IMG/VR virus record: IMGVR_UViG_3300035662_000180
Coordinates: 1-21,687 of that record
Length of the DNA stretch: 21,687 nucleotides
Direction: 5' to 3' (one strand)
Origin: a virus
Part shown: in pieces, positions 642-17,810 of the stretch
How positions within the stretch are numbered: the first letter of the stretch is position 1
Layout of the letters: each line of letters begins with the position of its first letter
Position numbers and translations under genes: made by a program
Notes under the pieces: model-generated
Told to the model about the DNA's origin: nothing
Database searches by the model: none
What the model saw: only the letters and a program-made list of their open reading frames with translations

Positions 642-1346
642 ATGGCATCAAGAGGACCAGGAGCAGGACAACCTGAAGTTGGTTTTTTGTATAAGACAAC
701 AGATGAAGCATTAGAAATCTTTGGTAAATTATCCCTTACAAGTCAATTTAAGGTATCATTGCACTTGACTAATCGTGGTGATGGTGATTTATTGATGAAT
801 TGGTTGGCAGATGCAGGAATTACAAGTGATGGAGAATTTTCAAAATTTGACTTTTATTGTGCGGAGACTTCACTTCCTGGCGCAACCTTTGATGTCACGG
901 AAGAGATTGGGTCACGTCAAGGAGTGATAGAGAGGTTTCCAACTAAAAGAGTTTATCCAGATGTTACAATGACATTTTATGTTGATTATGATTATAAACT
1001 CATTCGTCTTTTTGAAGAATGGATGAATTATATCAATCCTGTTTATACAGATGCTGGAGAAGTTAAAGCAAATTCAAGGGGACAGGGAGACGCAAAAAAT
1101 CGTCCAGATTTTTTTAGACTTAAATATCCCGACACATATAAGAGAATTATATCAATTGTAAAATTTGAAAGAGATTTGAATAGAACTAATGATGTGCCAA
1201 GAATAACTTATCGTTTGATTGATGCTTTCCCTACAAACATAGCAGCAATGCCAGTGACTTATGAAGGAAGTACAATCACTAAAACAATAGTTACCTTTAG
1301 TTACTCCCGTTATGTAATTGAAAAACATAAAACGAGGAGTAAATAA
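642..1346 (+). CDS. Tail-tube-fold baseplate protein (gp19/gp48/gp54 family)
   Basis: This 234-residue protein shows the conserved layout of T4-like tail-tube-fold proteins: FKVSLH near residue 36, DFYCAETSLPGATFDV near 70-85, a run like RFPTKRVYPDVTMTFYVDYDY (split by the usual 'tube' strands), FEEWMNYINP, a PDTYKRIISIVKFERD segment and the closing AFPTNIAAMPVTYEGS ... TFSYSRYVI strand. Such proteins make the tube itself (gp19) or the baseplate start of the tube (gp48, gp54). Its place next to gp4 and gp26, away from a sheath gene, favours a baseplate tube-initiator role, but I cannot separate the three from sequence alone. No Shine-Dalgarno is visible; TATAAT at 619-624 could be a -10 box giving a short leader. 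Residues 1-10 are Gly/Pro-rich and probably disordered. Confidence 0.75.
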   Translation: MASRGPGAGQPEVGFLYKTTDEALEIFGKLSLTSQFKVSLHLTNRGDGDLLMNWLADAGITSDGEFSKFDFYCAETSLPGATFDVTEEIGSRQGVIERFPTKRVYPDVTMTFYVDYDYKLIRLFEEWMNYINPVYTDAGEVKANSRGQGDAKNRPDFFRLKYPDTYKRIISIVKFERDLNRTNDVPRITYRLIDAFPTNIAAMPVTYEGSTITKTIVTFSYSRYVIEKHKTRSK

Positions 1347-1349
1347 ATA
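1342..1349 (+). promoter_or_regulatory. Late-promoter-like AATAAATA box before gp26
   Basis: AATAAATA overlaps the stop codon of the upstream gene and ends 22 bases before the gp26 ATG (1371). It fits the NATAAATA form of late promoters of cyanophage T4-like phages. No Shine-Dalgarno is visible in the short predicted leader. Confidence 0.6.
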
Positions 1350-1370
1350 AAAGCACTGAAACATTGAATT

Positions 1371-2099
1371 ATGCCATTACCTAAGATTTCTACACCAACG
1401 TATGAATTGGTTTTGCCATCAACTGGGAAAACAATTAAATACAGACCATTTCTAGTCAAAGAAGAAAAGATATTAATTCTTGCTCTTGAAAGTCAAGATA
1501 CAAAAGAAATTACAAATGCAATCAAGCAAGTATTAAAAGATTGTATTTTAACAAAAGCAATTAAAGTAGAAGAACTTCCAACTTTTGATATTGAATATTT
1601 GTTCTTAAACCTTCGTTCAAAATCTGTTGGTGAGTCTATTGAATTAATTATTACTTGTGGTGATGATATGGAAACTCAAGTTCCAGTCACAATTTATATT
1701 GATGAGATTCAAGTTCAAAAAGAAGAAAATCATAGCACGGATATTAAACTTGATAGTTCTTTAGTTTTAAGAATGAAGTATCCATCTTTAGACCAGTTTA
1801 TTAAAAATAATTTTGATTTTAACACAGAGCAAAGTACATCAAATATTGAAAAATCTTTAGATATTATTGCTTCTTGTATTGATATGATCTTTAATGAAGA
1901 AGAAAGTTGGGCAGCATCTGATTGTACTAAAAAAGAATTAGTTTCTTGGATTGAAACACTTGATTCAAATCAATTCAAACAGGTTGAAAACTTTTTTAAT
2001 ACAATGCCAAAACTTGCACACAAAGTAAAAGTTAAGAATCCAAAGACTGGAGTGGAAAGTGAAGTTACGTTGGAGGGGTTAACATCTTTTTTCGGTTGA
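1371..2099 (+). CDS. gp26: Baseplate hub / tail-assembly protein, T4 gp26 type
   Basis: The 242-residue protein opens with PLPKISTPTYELVLPSTGK, followed by IKYRPFLVKEEKILILALES, the hallmark of the T4 gp26 baseplate family (T4 gp26 is slightly shorter, about 208 residues). A central DIEYLFLNLRSKSVGE segment and a helical C-terminal half (IEKSLDIIASCIDMIF ... ELVSWIETLDSNQFKQVENFF) also fit. T4 gp26 is needed for assembly of the central baseplate hub. The reading frame ends ...TSFFG at 2099, where a T TTT TTC heptamer and a stem-loop suggest a -1 frameshift that would add the 57-residue protein at 2102 to its C-terminus, giving a fusion of about 301 residues. That layout resembles the G/GT tail chaperones of lambda-type phages. 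A late-promoter-like box precedes it at 1342. Confidence 0.8.
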   Translation: MPLPKISTPTYELVLPSTGKTIKYRPFLVKEEKILILALESQDTKEITNAIKQVLKDCILTKAIKVEELPTFDIEYLFLNLRSKSVGESIELIITCGDDMETQVPVTIYIDEIQVQKEENHSTDIKLDSSLVLRMKYPSLDQFIKNNFDFNTEQSTSNIEKSLDIIASCIDMIFNEEESWAASDCTKKELVSWIETLDSNQFKQVENFFNTMPKLAHKVKVKNPKTGVESEVTLEGLTSFFG

Positions 2100-2129
2100 G
2101 TATGGCTTATATGGAATTGGAGTCATACT
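2087..2129 (+). promoter_or_regulatory. Candidate programmed -1 ribosomal frameshift site (slippery heptamer plus stem-loop)
   Basis: The heptamer T TTT TTC (2087-2093) lies in the gp26 frame exactly as X XXY YYZ, four codons from the end. A -1 slip leads through CGG TTG AGT straight into the ATG of the 57-residue frame at 2102, with no stop between. A stem of ten pairs follows: 2099-2108 (AGTATGGCTT) with 2120-2129 (GAGTCATACT), eight Watson-Crick and two G-U pairs, with an 11-base loop. The gap from the heptamer to the stem is 5 bases, within the usual range. The downstream ATG has no Shine-Dalgarno at a proper distance. This is inferred from sequence; frameshifting itself is not shown. Confidence 0.65.
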
Positions 2130-2275
2130 TTAGAATTAATTTTGCATTACTTCAATTTCATAAATGGCCGATTAGGGATGTTGAAAATATGATGCCTTGG
2201 GAAAGAGATATTTACTTAGCACTTCTCCAACAACATATTGAAGATGAGAAACTAAAACAACAAAATGCTCAATAA
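2102..2275 (+). CDS. 57-residue tail-assembly protein, probable -1 frameshift extension of gp26
   Basis: This short frame (MAYMELESYFRINFALLQFH..., then PIRDVENMMPWERDIYLALL and a charged tail IEDEKLKQQNAQ) starts 3 bases after the gp26 stop, in the -1 frame. The pattern 'D-x-E-x-M-P-x-x-E-R-x-x-Y-x-x-L' followed by a charged helix is typical of small second halves of phage tail chaperones (the 'T' part of GT). T4 places gene 51, a hub assembly catalyst, at this position, but T4 gp51 is about four times longer, so I do not give it that name. It may be made only as a gp26 fusion, or also from its own ATG. Its own ATG has no good ribosome binding site. The function is inferred from position and shape. 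Confidence 0.7.
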   Translation: MAYMELESYFRINFALLQFHKWPIRDVENMMPWERDIYLALLQQHIEDEKLKQQNAQ

Positions 2276-2278
2276 ATA
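2271..2278 (+). promoter_or_regulatory. Late-promoter-like AATAAATA box before the 2300 gene
   Basis: AATAAATA overlaps the stop codon at 2273-2275 and ends 22 bases before the ATG at 2300, the same spacing as the box before gp26. The predicted leader contains the purine-rich AAGAAAG, a weak ribosome binding site. Confidence 0.6.
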
Positions 2279-2299
2279 ATTCTAAAATAAGAAAGCAAG

Positions 2300-4075
2300 A
2301 TGGTAATAGGTTCGGTTCTGAACCCAGAAAGAATAGTAGGTAAGCAGAATACAAACCAACAACTCGCCAAAAATTTTATTTCTGGTGGTTCTTTTCTTGG
2401 AACATCTTCAATTGCTTCTGCTGCAAATAAAATAGTAGGATTTCAAAGAGGGACTGCAAAACCAGTCCCATCTTCAGTAGATTCAATCGTAAGTACTATT
2501 TCTACAAATATTACAAACAATATAACAAGCACTTTAAATAATACTCTTCAAAGTTTCACTACAGATTATAAGAAAAGAGTATCTGATGTTGATTCTGCGA
2601 AACCAACCGGCATTCTAAGTAAGTTTTTAAGTACCTATAAGAGTGTAATACAATTCATTCAGTTTTTTGGCAACAAAAAATTTGTGAATAGAATAAGTGA
2701 CAATTTAAAAAATCTTTCTAAATCATTTACAGAAAGTTTTGAAGTTGCAAAATTGATTCGTCAGGTCATTGTAAAAATAGTACAACAATTATCAAATCTT
2801 CCAAAAGCATCTCCAGGTGGTGGAGGTGGAATTGACATTGATGTTGATGTTCCCATGGGTGGTGTCAGAAAGAGCGCACCACGAGGACTTGGTAATATGT
2901 TCAAGGGAAGAGGCAAAATGCTTGCCCTTGGTGCTGGTGCTCTTGGATTGGGTGCTGTTGGTGCTGGCACAGTGAATGCTCTTTCTAATGTTGATGAAAT
3001 TAGAGCAGGAATGCTTCAACCTGGAGATGGTGGAGACATCATATCAACGTTTAGTTCTGCAATAGAAAGATTTATTACAGCAATTAATACAATGATTGGT
3101 ATTGGAAAGGGTCCTTCCAAACCTCCTGGTGGTGGTGCAGGAGGTGGTGGGGGAAGTCCTGGAGGTCCTGGTCCTGGAGGTCCTGGTCCTGGATCTCCAG
3201 TGGATTATAGTAATTTGAAAAGTGGTGATATATCTACTATGGCAGGCAAATCAGCAGTTTTATATGATGAATATAGAAATCTTGGATATACTGATGAGGG
3301 AGCAAAAAGATTAATTGCTGAAATTGGCAGAGAAGGTGGGATGGACAATAAAAACTTGTTTGGAACTCATACTGATCCTTCTGCAAAAATTCCTAATACT
3401 GGTATGTTTAGTTGGAATCAAGATAGAAGAACTGCTTTAATCGATCAGGCCAAAAAGGCTGGGGTTTGGGATGAGACCAAAGGTCAAATAAAAGAAACTG
3501 CTGAGGGATTGAGATTCCAAGCAAGATTTTCTGCAAATGAAATTAAGACGAGAGGTGCTGGAGTTCCTGAAGCATTAACCACTCAAGGTTATTCTGGTGC
3601 TAAAATATCACAATTACTTAGAGATAAGTATATTGTTTATAGAACTGATCGTGGTTATTCTGGGGGTCCTGATCCAGAATATGGATCAGTTAAAACTGGA
3701 GAATGGTATAAAAAATTGACTCCAGGATTGGAAAAAACATATAAACCAAAACCAGGAATAGGAGGTAGTTATGAGGAATTGCCTAAAGAATATGCTGCAG
3801 CATATAAGGCTGGAAAATTAAAATTAGAAGAATACAACAACTTAGCAACAGGTGTTTCTCAAGTTGCTCAAACAGCAGCACAATCACAAACAAATATTGT
3901 ACCAATAGATTTGTCTGGTGCAATGCCTCAACAATCTCAAGGTGGTGGAGGAGGTATTTCTGCACCACCATCAACTCAAAAAAATGGTCCATCAGTTCCA
4001 TTATTACCTTCTGCAAACACTGATAATTTTTTAGTTTTATATTCAAGAATGGTTTATAATATAGTAGACGGATAA
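2300..4075 (+). CDS. Tail protein with lysozyme-like domain; tape-measure candidate
   Basis: The 591-residue protein has, in order: a helical N-terminal third (to about 170; Asn/Thr-rich around 65-80, then FIQFFGNKKFVNRISDNL), a Gly-rich linker, the motif GNMFKGRGKM (198-207), a Gly/Ala hydrophobic stretch (208-229), a second Gly/Pro-rich linker, a domain at about 305-430 resembling the phage tail-lysozyme family (AEIGREGG with E345 as the candidate catalytic acid, then FGTHTDP and GMFSWNQDRRTALIDQAKKAG), and a PGIGG-AAY tail from 485. It sits right after the frameshifted chaperone-like pair, where tape-measure genes usually lie, and its length is close to that of T4 gp29 (590). The extended helix expected of a tape measure is short here, so it could instead be a hub or ejected lytic protein. 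It ends in a TAATG junction with the next gene, to which it is related. Confidence 0.65.
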   Translation: MVIGSVLNPERIVGKQNTNQQLAKNFISGGSFLGTSSIASAANKIVGFQRGTAKPVPSSVDSIVSTISTNITNNITSTLNNTLQSFTTDYKKRVSDVDSAKPTGILSKFLSTYKSVIQFIQFFGNKKFVNRISDNLKNLSKSFTESFEVAKLIRQVIVKIVQQLSNLPKASPGGGGGIDIDVDVPMGGVRKSAPRGLGNMFKGRGKMLALGAGALGLGAVGAGTVNALSNVDEIRAGMLQPGDGGDIISTFSSAIERFITAINTMIGIGKGPSKPPGGGAGGGGGSPGGPGPGGPGPGSPVDYSNLKSGDISTMAGKSAVLYDEYRNLGYTDEGAKRLIAEIGREGGMDNKNLFGTHTDPSAKIPNTGMFSWNQDRRTALIDQAKKAGVWDETKGQIKETAEGLRFQARFSANEIKTRGAGVPEALTTQGYSGAKISQLLRDKYIVYRTDRGYSGGPDPEYGSVKTGEWYKKLTPGLEKTYKPKPGIGGSYEELPKEYAAAYKAGKLKLEEYNNLATGVSQVAQTAAQSQTNIVPIDLSGAMPQQSQGGGGGISAPPSTQKNGPSVPLLPSANTDNFLVLYSRMVYNIVDG

Positions 4076-6171
4076 TGAAAAAAGTACTTTCTTCTCCTTT
4101 AGTTTCTGCTTCCAATAACATAGTTTCTTTTAGTGGAGATTCCTCAAGAAGACTAAAAGGAATTCAGAGAGATGTTGTTGATTTCTCTAAGTTTTTAAAC
4201 ACTCAAAATAAAGAAATTAATAGAATAAAATTACCTGAAAAAAGAAAAATTAAAGAACTTGCGAACTTAAACATTGCTTCAAGTTTTGGTTCTCCTGGAA
4301 ATTTATTATCATCTTTACTTGGAGGGGCACTTGATGTTGCTGGTTTTCTTGGTAATATGTTCCCTCCAAGAGGAAAAATGGGTGCTCCTCAAAATACAAG
4401 AGGATTGAGACCACCAAAACCAATAGTTTCTGGTTCTAAGTTACAATTTGGAGGACTCAAATCTGTAGGTATTTTGAATGCAGTTTTTTCTGGATTGGAT
4501 TTTGCTCAGGGATTGGCAGAGGGAGAAAGCACAGGTCAAGCAGCATCGGGAGCAGTGGGCAATCTTGCTGGTTCATTACTTGGTGGTGCCATTGGGCAAG
4601 CACTAATTCCAATACCTGGGCTTGGTTTTGTAATTGGAAGTATGGCAGGTGGATTTTTGGGTGGTTACACCGCAGATAGAGCATATGAACTTGCAACTGG
4701 TGGTGCTGGAGGTGTGTCTGGAAAAGTTGAAGAAAAACTAAAGGCACAAGAACAACAACAAAAGGCATCAGTTCAAGAAAGTGGATTTGGTGATGTAATA
4801 AACAGATTTAGTGACTCTGTAGGAAAGTTTGAAAACTTTGTCTATAAGTCATTTGCTTCTGTGGTAAATGGTGCCGCAGCTGCTGCTGGTTCTGATGAAA
4901 TGATGTTGGATTACGGTTTAGACCCAGATGCAATTCCAGATGCTCCTGAAATTCCAGGAGAACTTCCAGATATGACTGCTGAAGGTGGTCAAATGCCCAG
5001 CAAATATACTTCATCTCCTTATGGTTGGAGATGGGGAAGAATTCATAGTGGTGTTGATTATGCTATTACGGAAGGAACACCAGTAAGTGTGATTCAACCT
5101 GGTCAAGTAACATACGCACAATTTAATGATGGTGGGTATGGATATGCTGTACAAATTGCACATCCTGGTGGTTCTAGTAGTTTTTATGGGCACTTAAGTA
5201 AAATATCAGTCAAAGAAGGACAACAAATAGAACCTGGAACTGTAATTGGAAATGTAGGAAGCACAGGAAATTCTACGGGACCTCACGTTCATTTTGAAGT
5301 TAGACAAGGAAGTAAAAAATTAGAAATACCTACAAGTGAGGGAGATAAGTATTTTAGATTCGGTGGCAATGTAAAAGTCAAACCAAAGGCAGGAGTTTCG
5401 GGAGCAGGTTCTAATCCTTTTGTTTTAGAATTACACGCAGACCCAAATGCAAAAGGACAAAAGACAGGATTAATCCCAAGCAATACCAGTCCAGATACTG
5501 CTGTTTCTCAAGCACTTGTTTCTAGTTTCGGGACTTATGGTAAAAATTTTAGAGGAGGATTGGGTGTTACAAATAGAGGTGGAAATATTCTAGAGTCAGA
5601 TATGGCATTAGGTGCTGAAGCAAATGCAAAAAGAATAGTTGAAGCAATGATGAAAGACCCTAAACGTGCATATCATATTTTTGCAGGACACGCTGATGTA
5701 ACAAAAGGTGAAACTGGTGCTCCTGGAGAAAAGGAATATAATTTAAAAACTGCTGAATTGGTTGAAAAATTAGCAAAAGCACAGAAATTAAATGTAATGT
5801 ACCATAAATCTATTATTGCAAATGAAGCAAGTGATCCAAATTCAAATCTTTCCAGAATTAAAGCAATAATGGATGCTTCAAAGAGACCTGGAATAGGAGG
5901 TCCAGATTTAACTCCAGAGGCAATTGCTGCATATCAATCTGGAATGATTCAAAATCTCCAACAATACCCTTCTTATAATCAACTACAACAGGTTACAACA
6001 ATTATACCAATGATGATGAGTCCTCAAGGTGGAGGAGGACAACAAAAACCAGTCTTTATTCCAGTTGGAGGTGGTGGTGGAGGAACTGTAATTCTTCCTG
6101 GTCCAGATGAAGGACAACTGGTAAATAGTCTTATGAAGACTATGTTACTTACTAATCTGTCAGCAAGCTAA
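4075..6171 (+). CDS. Tail protein with M23 peptidase domain and permuted amidase-like domain
   Basis: The 698-residue protein starts with a charged helical region (to about 65), then GNMFPPRGKM (93-102), a hydrophobic glycine-zipper stretch (about 154-203), and an M23 (lysostaphin/LytM-type) metallopeptidase domain at about 300-415. Its zinc ligands are visible: H324-x-x-x-D328 in RIHSGVDYA and H404-V-H406 in TGPHVHFEV, with YGHLS between. M23 enzymes cut peptide cross-links of peptidoglycan. Residues about 450-590 resemble an N-acetylmuramoyl-L-alanine amidase (Amidase_3) with its two halves swapped: H454 in VLELHAD and E507 in NILESD come first, H539 in FAGHAD and E554 in GEKEYN second. A PGIGG-AAY tail from 605 parallels the upstream protein. 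It probably acts at the tail tip during DNA entry. Both ends have TAATG coupling. The M23 call is firm; the amidase call is a pattern reading. Confidence 0.8.
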   Translation: MKKVLSSPLVSASNNIVSFSGDSSRRLKGIQRDVVDFSKFLNTQNKEINRIKLPEKRKIKELANLNIASSFGSPGNLLSSLLGGALDVAGFLGNMFPPRGKMGAPQNTRGLRPPKPIVSGSKLQFGGLKSVGILNAVFSGLDFAQGLAEGESTGQAASGAVGNLAGSLLGGAIGQALIPIPGLGFVIGSMAGGFLGGYTADRAYELATGGAGGVSGKVEEKLKAQEQQQKASVQESGFGDVINRFSDSVGKFENFVYKSFASVVNGAAAAAGSDEMMLDYGLDPDAIPDAPEIPGELPDMTAEGGQMPSKYTSSPYGWRWGRIHSGVDYAITEGTPVSVIQPGQVTYAQFNDGGYGYAVQIAHPGGSSSFYGHLSKISVKEGQQIEPGTVIGNVGSTGNSTGPHVHFEVRQGSKKLEIPTSEGDKYFRFGGNVKVKPKAGVSGAGSNPFVLELHADPNAKGQKTGLIPSNTSPDTAVSQALVSSFGTYGKNFRGGLGVTNRGGNILESDMALGAEANAKRIVEAMMKDPKRAYHIFAGHADVTKGETGAPGEKEYNLKTAELVEKLAKAQKLNVMYHKSIIANEASDPNSNLSRIKAIMDASKRPGIGGPDLTPEAIAAYQSGMIQNLQQYPSYNQLQQVTTIIPMMMSPQGGGGQQKPVFIPVGGGGGGTVILPGPDEGQLVNSLMKTMLLTNLSAS

Positions 6172-15761: not shown

Positions 15762-17810
15762 ATGACAAAGTATTTAAGTGGAAGAGTAAAAAGAAGGTCA
15801 CAGTCCGATTTAACAAGTGATAGATATAAGTACTTAGCAATAAATCAAGCAGAACCAAATCTTGGAGATCCTTCTTTACTGGAACAATCTCTTCCTTTTG
15901 GTCAACCATATCAAGTTGTTTCAGTACCTGGATATCCAGGACAACGATATTGGATTCCACCTGGAGGTGGATTGATACCTGGTTCTATTAGTGTTTATGA
16001 TGAAAATATTATTGTCCCCAGTAATGCTGGTGTGAGTAGCATTACTCAAATAAATTTTGTTGGATCTGCAATTAGTGTAACTGGTTATTTAAATGCAGAT
16101 AATTCCCCAGGAACTGGAGTTACTGTTAGAGTTTTTGCTCCAGGAAATAATCAACAAATATTTTTTAATAATAACAATGAGTTTGGAACTTCTTCATTAT
16201 TGATTTTTGATAATGTTACTGGAATTTTAACAGCAGGAAAATCCATTAATGTTGGTATTGGTGCCACTGTTTTGACTGCAACTTTAGATGGTTTAGTTGG
16301 AATTAGAACTGCAACCCCAACAGACCCATTAGACGTAAATGGAAATATAAGACTTCGTTCTGGTCTTAAAGATTTTAATAACAATGTAGGTATTGAAAGT
16401 TCTATTCTTGTTTCTACAGGTGCTGGAGTTTCTTGGACCTCCCCTTATGCTGCTGGTCTTCAGGGTCTTCAGGGACTTCAGGGCACTCAAGGAACACAGG
16501 GAACTCAAGGTACTCAAGGAACACAGGGAACACAGGGAACTCAAGGTACTCAAGGAACACAGGGAACTCAAGGTACTCAAGGAACACAGGGAACTCAAGG
16601 TACTCAAGGTACTCAAGGTACTCAAGGAACACAGGGAACTCAAGGAACACAGGGAACTCAAGGTACTCAAGGTACTCAAGGACTTCAGGGAACACAAGGA
16701 ACTCAGGGCACTCAAGGCATCTCTGGGGAAGGAGGTGCTCAAGGAACTCAAGGAACTCAAGGAACACAGGGTACTCAGGGAACTCAAGGTACTCAAGGTC
16801 TTCAGGGAACACAAGGAACTCAGGGCACTCAAGGCATCTCTGGGGAAGGAGGTGCTCAAGGAACTCAAGGAACTCAAGGAACACAGGGTACTCAGGGAAC
16901 TCAAGGTACTCAGGGAACTCAAGGTACTCAAGGTATCTCTGGTGGAGGAGGTGCTCAAGGAACACAGGGTACTCAGGGAACTCAAGGTACTCAAGGTATC
17001 TCTGGTGGAGAAGGTGCTCAAGGAACACAGGGTACTCAGGGAACTCAAGGTACTCAAGGTATCTCTGGTGGAGGAGGTGCTCAAGGAACACAGGGTACTC
17101 AAGGAACTCAAGGTACTCAAGGTACTCAAGGAACACAGGGTACTCAAGGAACTCAAGGTACTCAAGGTCTTCAGGGACTTCAAGGAACACAGGGTACTCA
17201 GGGTACTCAGGGTACTCAAGGAACTCAAGGTACTCAAGGAACTCAAGGTACTCAAGGCACACAAGGTACTCAAGGTGCTACAGGAACAGGTACTCAAGGT
17301 ACTACAGGAACAGGTACTCAAGGTACTCAGGGCACTCAGGGCACTCAAGGAACTCAAGGTGCTTCAGGTGTTAGTGTTAGTGGAAGTATTATACAAGTTG
17401 CATATGCAACATCTAGTTTAACGAACTCAACAACATCAACATCTTTTCAGGCATCAAGTTTAGCAGTTTCAATCATCCCAAACTCTACTTCTAGTAAAAT
17501 ACTTATAATTTCACATTTCTCAGCAAATCAAGAAACTCAAGCATCAAGTGGAGATGGTGGATATTTTTCTATTTTTAGAAGTGGTACTAATCTTGGAGAT
17601 GCAACTTATGGTATGATATTTGTAGGTACGAATTCACCACCAGTTTATTCAGGTGCATCGCTCACTTGGATAGATTCTCCAAGTACAACATCTTCTGTAG
17701 AATATAAACTTTATTTTAGAAGTAAATTGGGAGGAACTGTAAGTGCTCTAACTGGAACTGGTGGTGAAACTAGAGCAGCATCAATTACGGCAATGGAGAT
17801 AGTAGCATGA
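15762..17810 (+). CDS. Collagen-like tail fibre with globular C-terminal knob
   Basis: The 682-residue protein has a basic N-terminal attachment region (TKYLSGRVKRRSQSDL, then PGYPGQRYWIPPGGG) and a shaft with one VGIxxxxPxxxLDVxG repeat (VGIRTATPTDPLDVNG). A collagen-like segment of Gly-X-Y triplets follows from residue 232 to 535, mostly Gly-Thr-Gln, with five Gly-Ile-Ser-Gly-x-Gly-Gly-Ala-Gln inserts that keep the three-residue register and two short breaks near its end (GATGTGTQGTTGTGTQ). A C-terminal beta-domain (about 536-682: IPNSTSSKILIISHFSA, DSPSTTSSVEYKLYFRS, ASITAMEIV) is of a type common at phage fibre tips. The shaft should trimerise as a triple helix and the knob should bind the host. 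It starts 2 bases after the upstream stop and overlaps the next gene by 4 bases (ATGA). Confidence 0.8.
   Translation: MTKYLSGRVKRRSQSDLTSDRYKYLAINQAEPNLGDPSLLEQSLPFGQPYQVVSVPGYPGQRYWIPPGGGLIPGSISVYDENIIVPSNAGVSSITQINFVGSAISVTGYLNADNSPGTGVTVRVFAPGNNQQIFFNNNNEFGTSSLLIFDNVTGILTAGKSINVGIGATVLTATLDGLVGIRTATPTDPLDVNGNIRLRSGLKDFNNNVGIESSILVSTGAGVSWTSPYAAGLQGLQGLQGTQGTQGTQGTQGTQGTQGTQGTQGTQGTQGTQGTQGTQGTQGTQGTQGTQGTQGTQGTQGTQGTQGLQGTQGTQGTQGISGEGGAQGTQGTQGTQGTQGTQGTQGLQGTQGTQGTQGISGEGGAQGTQGTQGTQGTQGTQGTQGTQGTQGISGGGGAQGTQGTQGTQGTQGISGGEGAQGTQGTQGTQGTQGISGGGGAQGTQGTQGTQGTQGTQGTQGTQGTQGTQGLQGLQGTQGTQGTQGTQGTQGTQGTQGTQGTQGTQGATGTGTQGTTGTGTQGTQGTQGTQGTQGASGVSVSGSIIQVAYATSSLTNSTTSTSFQASSLAVSIIPNSTSSKILIISHFSANQETQASSGDGGYFSIFRSGTNLGDATYGMIFVGTNSPPVYSGASLTWIDSPSTTSSVEYKLYFRSKLGGTVSALTGTGGETRAASITAMEIVA
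16684..16912 (+). repeat. 117-base tandem duplication inside the collagen tract
   Basis: Bases 16684-16795 and 16801-16912 are identical over 112 bases, with a period of 117 bases (39 codons, 13 Gly-X-Y triplets). Each copy holds one ISGEGGAQ insert. Identity at synonymous sites implies a recent duplication. Confidence 0.85.
16896..17084 (+). repeat. Three tandem 63-base units inside the collagen tract
   Basis: Units at 16896-16958, 16959-17021 and 17022-17084 each encode seven Gly-X-Y triplets ending in ISG-G(G/E)G-AQ. They differ at only a few bases, for example GGAGGAGGT against GGAGAAGGT, and the first has ACT CAA where the others have ACA CAG. Confidence 0.85.

Follow-up and report, generated by a model that had tools for sequence, protein, structure and literature searches.

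The window, by which we mean the whole 21,687-base virus record analysed here, carries a T4-like tail module in which gp26 is preceded by a tail tube gene and followed by two large genes:

642 to 1346, plus strand: gene of the tail tube family, upstream of gp26 (PHROG 45 tail tube, 7.7e-34; Pfam Phage_TTP_2)
1371 to 2099, plus strand: gp26, zero frame, 242 amino acids, probable short tail assembly chaperone of the TAC-N type (Pfam T4_baseplate, 1.7e-72; PHROG 150, 1.7e-78)
2300 to 4075, plus strand: large tail gene after gp26/gp51, 591 amino acids, tape-measure candidate without a match to a tape-measure family
4075 to 6171: second large gene, 698 amino acids, whose M23 peptidase region matches tape-measure families

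Hub and lysozyme-type genes follow downstream of the second large gene. Megablast of 642-4074 found no match among annotated phage records; judged by gp26, the nearest named relative is Synechococcus phage S-SCSM2R (71%), and identities of up to 96% occur in IMG/VR loci. For 2300-4075 the family searches named no tape-measure family, and the genes downstream in seven named relatives gave tape-measure matches that were weak, partial or absent; that 2300-4075 is the tape-measure gene is plausible. Elsewhere in the window, positions 146-610 on the minus strand encode a head-closure protein (PHROG 218) with an additional hit to the Pfam family TnsA-like endonuclease N-terminal. Within the ORF at 15762-17810, the stretch 16485-17360 consists of a 9-base unit repeated about 98 times, which is translated into collagen-like GTQ repeats; the long mirror ORFs found there on both strands are by-products of this repeat.

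The gene for gp26 ends in the codons TCT TTT TTC GGT TGA, with the stop at 2097-2099. Around this end lie the following features:

2072 to 2076, plus strand: GGAGG, SD-like internal element and likely stimulator, 10 bases before the heptamer
2087 to 2093, plus strand: T TTT TTC, slippery heptamer of the form X XXY YYZ in the correct phase, with codons conserved in relatives
2087 to 2275, plus strand: gp51, the extension in the -1 frame (TAC-C type), corresponding to residues 240-301 of the predicted fusion and ending in TAA 2273-2275 (PHROG 634, 8.9e-25; C-terminal part of PHROG 150, 9e-6; C-terminus of T4 gp51)
2098 to 2130, plus strand: predicted hairpin of 11 pairs, 2098-2108 with 2120-2130 (folding, covariation with slid controls, structure profile)
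2102 to 2104, plus strand: internal ATG in poor initiation context, usable by a separate gp51 gene, opening 57 codons (start-codon survey of relatives)

Read from 2087, the -1 frame gives FFRLSMAYMELESY... (FFRLSMAY...) and stays open up to the TAA at 2273-2275, and the predicted fusion would comprise 239 + 62 = 301 residues. The original prediction had named an in-phase T TTT TTC near the end of gp26 and a -1 frame running without a stop into a 57-residue frame, and both are borne out in the window.

To judge the site in relatives, loci were retrieved with gp26 peptides lacking the last residues of the protein. In a first set of 80 loci, all 78 that reached the gp26 stop carried TTTTTTC in phase. 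Further scans and named phages widened the comparison to 341 sequences; one of these (L095) had no gp26 match, seven ended before the stop, and the remaining 333 yielded 296 distinct junctions. The T4 row (L081) was removed because it showed the gp51 end instead of the gp26 end, leaving 295 gp26 junctions, the window itself (L097) included. Six T in phase at the gp26 end (T6) are present at 276 of these 295 distinct junctions, which come from relatives that are not phylogenetically independent. Counted within 24 nt, the run is found in 213/213 junctions of the three cyanophage-type scans, 45/47 of the phiM9-query scan, 2/2 near Vibrio phage nt-1, 14/18 other junctions (window included) and 0/15 of the Limestonevirus-query scan. 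The two phiM9-query junctions without the run at this distance (L147 and L150) have it in phase 31 nt before a gp26 stop that is displaced 7 codons downstream, and their extension is still in the -1 frame. Named phages that bear the site include P-SSM2, S-SSM7, P-HM1, S-RIM2, nt-1, phiAS5, Ps15, phiM9, ORM_20, pf16 and BUCT-ZZ01.

The simplest objection to a slip site would be that two genes merely adjoin each other and that the T run between them is meaningless. As a control set we used 485 other ORFs of at least 150 amino acids from both strands of the window and the cyanophage-type loci, which are mechanical ORFs and not all genes. Among these, 39 had any X XXY YYZ in their last 45 nt, three had an in-phase T6 there, and in 106 the -1 frame stayed open over 40 codons beyond the stop. 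The combination of T6 and a -1 frame open for 40 codons arose once in the 485, namely in the window's own next gene of 591 amino acids, near position 4027, and thus can occur by chance. However, conservation contradicts such an origin for the gp26 site: the T6 of the next gene is lost in those relatives whose alignments were inspected, which carry forms such as AAC TTT TTA or AAT TTC TTA instead and provide a natural negative control, whereas that of gp26 is kept in 276/295. Judged by these counts the gp26 slip site is far beyond chance, and a meaningless run has a practically negligible probability. A second frameshift joining the 591- and 698-amino-acid genes, considered for the T6 at 4027-4034, was rejected on account of the same loss in these relatives.

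Codon usage argues in the same direction. After reduction of 242 loci by 90% identity or length, 179 non-redundant gp26 genes were left, and in these the Phe codons of the heptamer are TTT in 179/179 and TTC in 173/173. In contrast, the likewise conserved Phe208-Phe209 of gp26 use both codons, with TTT/TTC ratios of 61/117 and 162/16. In some lineages Phe-Leu replaces Phe-Phe while T6 is kept, as T TTT TTA in 7 junctions and as TTTTTTG in phiM9. Since the heptamer codons are fixed where Phe208-Phe209 vary, and since T6 persists despite a changed amino acid, these codon counts indicate that selection acts on the nucleotides of the slip site.

A different source of the frame change might be slippage of RNA polymerase on the T run, which would produce a mixed mRNA population. 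The T6 of the window could be taken in this sense, and the idea is harder to dismiss for the phiM9-query set (loci L103-L161), where the run comprises 8 T in 31/47 and 7 T in 7/47 distinct junctions. Against it, the run is always exactly six in the 213 cyanophage-type junctions, while the runs that a review mentions in connection with slippage in bacteria comprise 9 A or T. The phase-exact T TTT TTC, the SD-like element and the hairpin are furthermore features of a ribosomal signal, and we consider polymerase slippage extremely unlikely as the general explanation. The 8-T runs of the phiM9-query set are long enough to raise it as a contributor there.

Besides the heptamer, an SD-like purine stretch recurs upstream of it. 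GAGG stands at -14 to -11 in 118/177 sequences, and AGG lies nearby in 175/177. Averaged over the 177 sequences, position -15 is the strongest anti-SD position of the whole gene, with -7.0 against a mean of 0.1 over 620 positions. In the individual sequence the site is less exclusive, with less than 1% of the upstream gp26 8-mers being as strong in 80/177 and less than 3% in 123/177. The underlying codons point to constraint as well: Glu235 is encoded by GAG in 120/174 genes, compared with 31% of the Glu codons gene-wide, while the other conserved Glu columns listed have GAG in at most 67/174. Outside the cyanophage set the SD-like site is unremarkable in nt-1, Ps15 and phiM9, although the median over 50 junctions is strong (0.9% of the gene's 8-mers are as strong). 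Going by these codon frequencies, the SD-like codons are under constraint. The SD-like element that lies about 10 nt before the heptamer is a likely stimulator of the slip.

On the other side of the heptamer, folding of 2094-2133 predicts an 11-bp stem of -11.5 kcal/mol (z -4.1, none of 200 shuffles as good). The longer stretch 2060-2148 is unremarkable overall (z -0.95) and retains the stem in its predicted fold. The original prediction had placed ten pairs (2099-2108 with 2120-2129) 5 bases past the heptamer, and this stem was recovered with one additional pair, so that it starts 4 bases after the heptamer. Its exact form is shared by part of the relatives: at least 8 of the 10 pairs are kept in 53 of the 177 sequences, out of 179, that were long enough downstream. 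The comparison across relatives that had been suggested along with the prediction thus confirmed the heptamer, its phase and the -1 extension as conserved in cyanophage-type and several other T4-like lineages, but not the exact stem as universal.

Nevertheless, structure as such appears to recur at this place. When 89 of the 177 sequences, all cyanophage-type, were folded in 50-nt windows, the minimum lay at +10 from the heptamer start (mean -10.6 kcal/mol), with z -2.17 compared to -0.20 at the control place. Other lineages fold different stems at about the same spacing from the heptamer. A common stem was sought in an alignment of 71 of 74 sequences. L015, L093 and L099 were omitted because they were offset or folded differently, a choice that favours the stem, and L096 entered shifted by 3 bases. 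Over these 71 sequences RNAalifold predicted no pairs and no common structure. The stem of the window exceeded all 500 shuffles in the cells paired (72.4%), the double-changed cells (28) and the covariation score (0.178), but not in the pairs changed on both sides (379/500) or in further pair types (143/500), and a control slid by +2 had more double-changed cells than the real stem (50 vs. 28). One universal stem is ruled out by the empty RNAalifold result together with the retention in 53/177. Junctions outside the cyanophage set show a weak hairpin signal (mean z -0.62, n=50), and those of the Kuttervirus and Limestonevirus types show none (z -0.8 to +0.3). Because the window's stem is kept by only part of the relatives, no universal consensus emerged and other stems occupy a like spacing, the hairpin is probably real yet fast-evolving, as far as predicted folds can tell.

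A different way to make gp51 would require no frameshift at all. Ribosomes terminating at the gp26 stop might reinitiate at ATG 2102, two bases further on, and gp51 would then be a separate protein of 57 residues. Public records do annotate separate gp51 genes, and in 85/176 sequences, the window included, the first ATG is codon 5 of the extension, just past the gp26 stop. However, the first nine codons of the extension contain no ATG, GTG or TTG in 65 of the 176 complete extensions, none of the 176 sequences offers such a codon before the heptamer in that frame, and the residues before codon 10 are conserved (FFRIAL.H..L). In those 65 the whole extension can therefore be made by fusion only. 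The invariance of the heptamer at synonymous sites likewise speaks against reinitiation, and so do the inconsistent annotated starts of gp51, which lie 20 bases past the gp26 stop in P-HM1 and 50 in S-RIM2, with none annotated in ACG-2014b. The gp26 genes of these three phages (L098, L099 and L100) all carry the in-phase T6 despite this inconsistency. In the window, the best SD-like stretch in the vicinity of the ATG is the GGAGG at 2072-2076, which lies 25 bases upstream of it and is thus too far away to be its ribosome binding site; the expectation that the internal ATG lacks such a site was correct. We therefore regard reinitiation without frameshifting as very unlikely, while it is possible as an additional route where the first ATG is codon 5.

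The -1 frameshift at the end of gp26 is also consistent with what can be said about the two protein parts. The predicted model of gp26 has a pLDDT of 85, and when 997 chains were aligned to its N-domain with VIA-align, the top three were 3fgx, 2ob9 and 3klu (Z 7.9, 7.7 and 7.3; rmsd 4.0 over 84-86 residues), followed by the next row at Z 4.8. 2ob9 is the HK97 tail assembly chaperone, and a passage of PMC9603447 calls all three tail assembly chaperones. A Z below 8 alone may reflect a common arrangement, so that the weight rests on the identity of the top three matches. Foldseek with the gp26 model returned nothing at E 0.001 or better, its best hit being again 2ob9 (E 0.47), and sequence searches of gp26 and the extension gave no convincing solved relative (all E >0.2). 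Going by the predicted model, gp26 is probably a tail chaperone of the TAC-N type. The next fold match to model residues 6-92, at Z 4.8, is 5ir0, ORF19 of a PICI-like element of Vibrio cholerae, which may be a chaperone-like protein carried by a satellite.

The extension belongs to PHROG 634 (gp51) in 51/51 members and is homologous to the C-terminus of T4 gp51 (probability 95.4), the N-part of which matches the gp26 profile (probability 95.9). Since its N-part resembles gp26 and its C-part the extension, T4 gp51 is by these profile matches the counterpart of the predicted frameshift fusion, encoded there by one gene opposite to gene 26. In T4 and Proteus phage Pm5461, both of which carry gp51 as a gene of its own, the final 90 nt of gp26 contain no X XXY YYZ.

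Besides these phages, no X XXY YYZ heptamer lies close to the stop in 19 of the 295 junctions, and all 19 are Ackermannviridae-type, a label that is our own in the case of Vibrio phage D506. Their extensions are still in the -1 frame and of the same kind (SYF...HGYSIFEI..SMPWH). Loci of this type with a conserved -1 extension and no T6 in about 20 bases around the gp26 stop are L086 and L326-L340. At the corresponding place they have ATT TTC (Kuttervirus and Limestonevirus types), GTT TTT (VAP7) or CTT TTC (D506), followed by one codon and the stop. Among 22 loci listed, not all distinct, 16 that we label Kuttervirus-type contain no ATG, GTG or TTG in frame until a GTG 32 nt past the stop, while in the other six (Limestonevirus types, VAP7 and D506) an ATG overlaps the stop, as TAATG in the Limestonevirus types. 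The slip site of T7 gene 10 is G GUU UUC, and we infer a relaxed slip of the T7 type for the Ackermannviridae-type relatives.

Taken together, a -1 frameshift at the end of gp26 that makes a longer chaperone is very probable from the sequence comparisons. The complete reading, according to which gp26 is the short chaperone and a -1 slip at the heptamer, stimulated by the SD-like element and the hairpin, yields a long gp26-gp51 chaperone, has in our estimate a probability of roughly 0.9. Ribosomes would be held at U UUU UUC (2087-2093) by pairing of GGAGG with the 16S rRNA and by the hairpin ahead. In a fraction of the passes two tRNA-Phe would slip back by one base and reading would continue in the -1 frame, which would add the gp51 domain of about 60 residues and give a long chaperone of 301 residues. 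By analogy with lambda G/GT, coating of the tape-measure protein would fall to the short form and recruitment of tube subunits to the long one. Sequence shows the heptamer with its phase and conservation, the homologies, the constraint on the SD-like codons and the excess of folding past the heptamer; the occurrence and frequency of slipping, its stimulation by SD-like element and hairpin, and the chaperone role are what we infer. Counting against this reading are the codon-5 ATG of 85/176 sequences, the lack of a common RNAalifold structure, the weak hairpin beyond the cyanophage set and the gp26 ends that carry no heptamer. The G/GT-type pair with a fusion of about 301 residues that had been proposed for gp26 and its neighbour is thus supported by the conserved heptamer, phase and extension, by the predicted gp26 fold and by the gp51 family. 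One might further speculate, with somewhat less than even confidence, that in T4-like phages of the cyanophage type the ratio of the two chaperones is set by a dnaX-like signal, made up of U UUU UUC, an SD-like element some 10 nt before it and a hairpin re-invented in each lineage.

Vladimirov, Gautam and Davidson (Virology 2022, 566:9-15) reportedly described the gp26/gp51 pair, with frameshifting conserved in several T4-like groups and T4 using separate genes 26 and 51. A passage of PMC12846349 (2025), citing Vladimirov et al. 2022, states that TAC-N genes of T4-like phages are known to use poly-T stretches as -1 signals, and one of PMC10274946 refers to the same work for T4-like phages in which the short and the fused form have genes of their own. 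The kind of site is therefore already known, where the original prediction was aware of no established case in T4-like phages. In the literature searched we met no prior mention of the SD-like element or of the Ackermannviridae variant, either of which may still be published.

The frameshift would explain the inconsistent annotation of cyanophage gp51, which is recorded as a short gene whose start varies or is missing altogether, and it recasts gp26, the 'baseplate hub protein' of many records, as a probable tail chaperone. It would link a common marine phage group to the rule known from lambda G/GT, by which a frameshift sets the stoichiometry of the chaperones. Moreover, the natural variants of SD-like element, slip base and stem offer a test set for the tuning of -1 frameshifting by bacterial ribosomes, including cyanobacterial ones.

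If compared with known systems, the predicted arrangement is that of lambda G/GT, in which the short chaperone acquires a C-terminal domain through a -1 slip at the 3' end of its gene. The lambda heptamer is GGGAAAG, unlike the T TTT TTC found here. HK97 gp13 ranks with the closest fold matches to gp26. According to a passage of PMC5009743, G-T frameshifting is widely conserved 'except T4'. T4 shares the protein architecture, its gp51 joining a gp26-like N-part to an extension-like C-part, but its genes 26 and 51 are separate and divergently oriented; T4 gp51 is described in part of PMC3004832 as needed for assembly and absent from the particle. With E. coli dnaX, the frameshift elements of which are treated in passages of PMC5600365 and PMC5009743, the site would share a three-part anatomy of upstream SD-like element, slippery heptamer and probable downstream structure, the first and the last being read here from sequence alone. 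In contrast, the dnaX heptamer is A AAA AAG, and the slip leads there to a shorter product, whereas in the window it would lead to a longer one.
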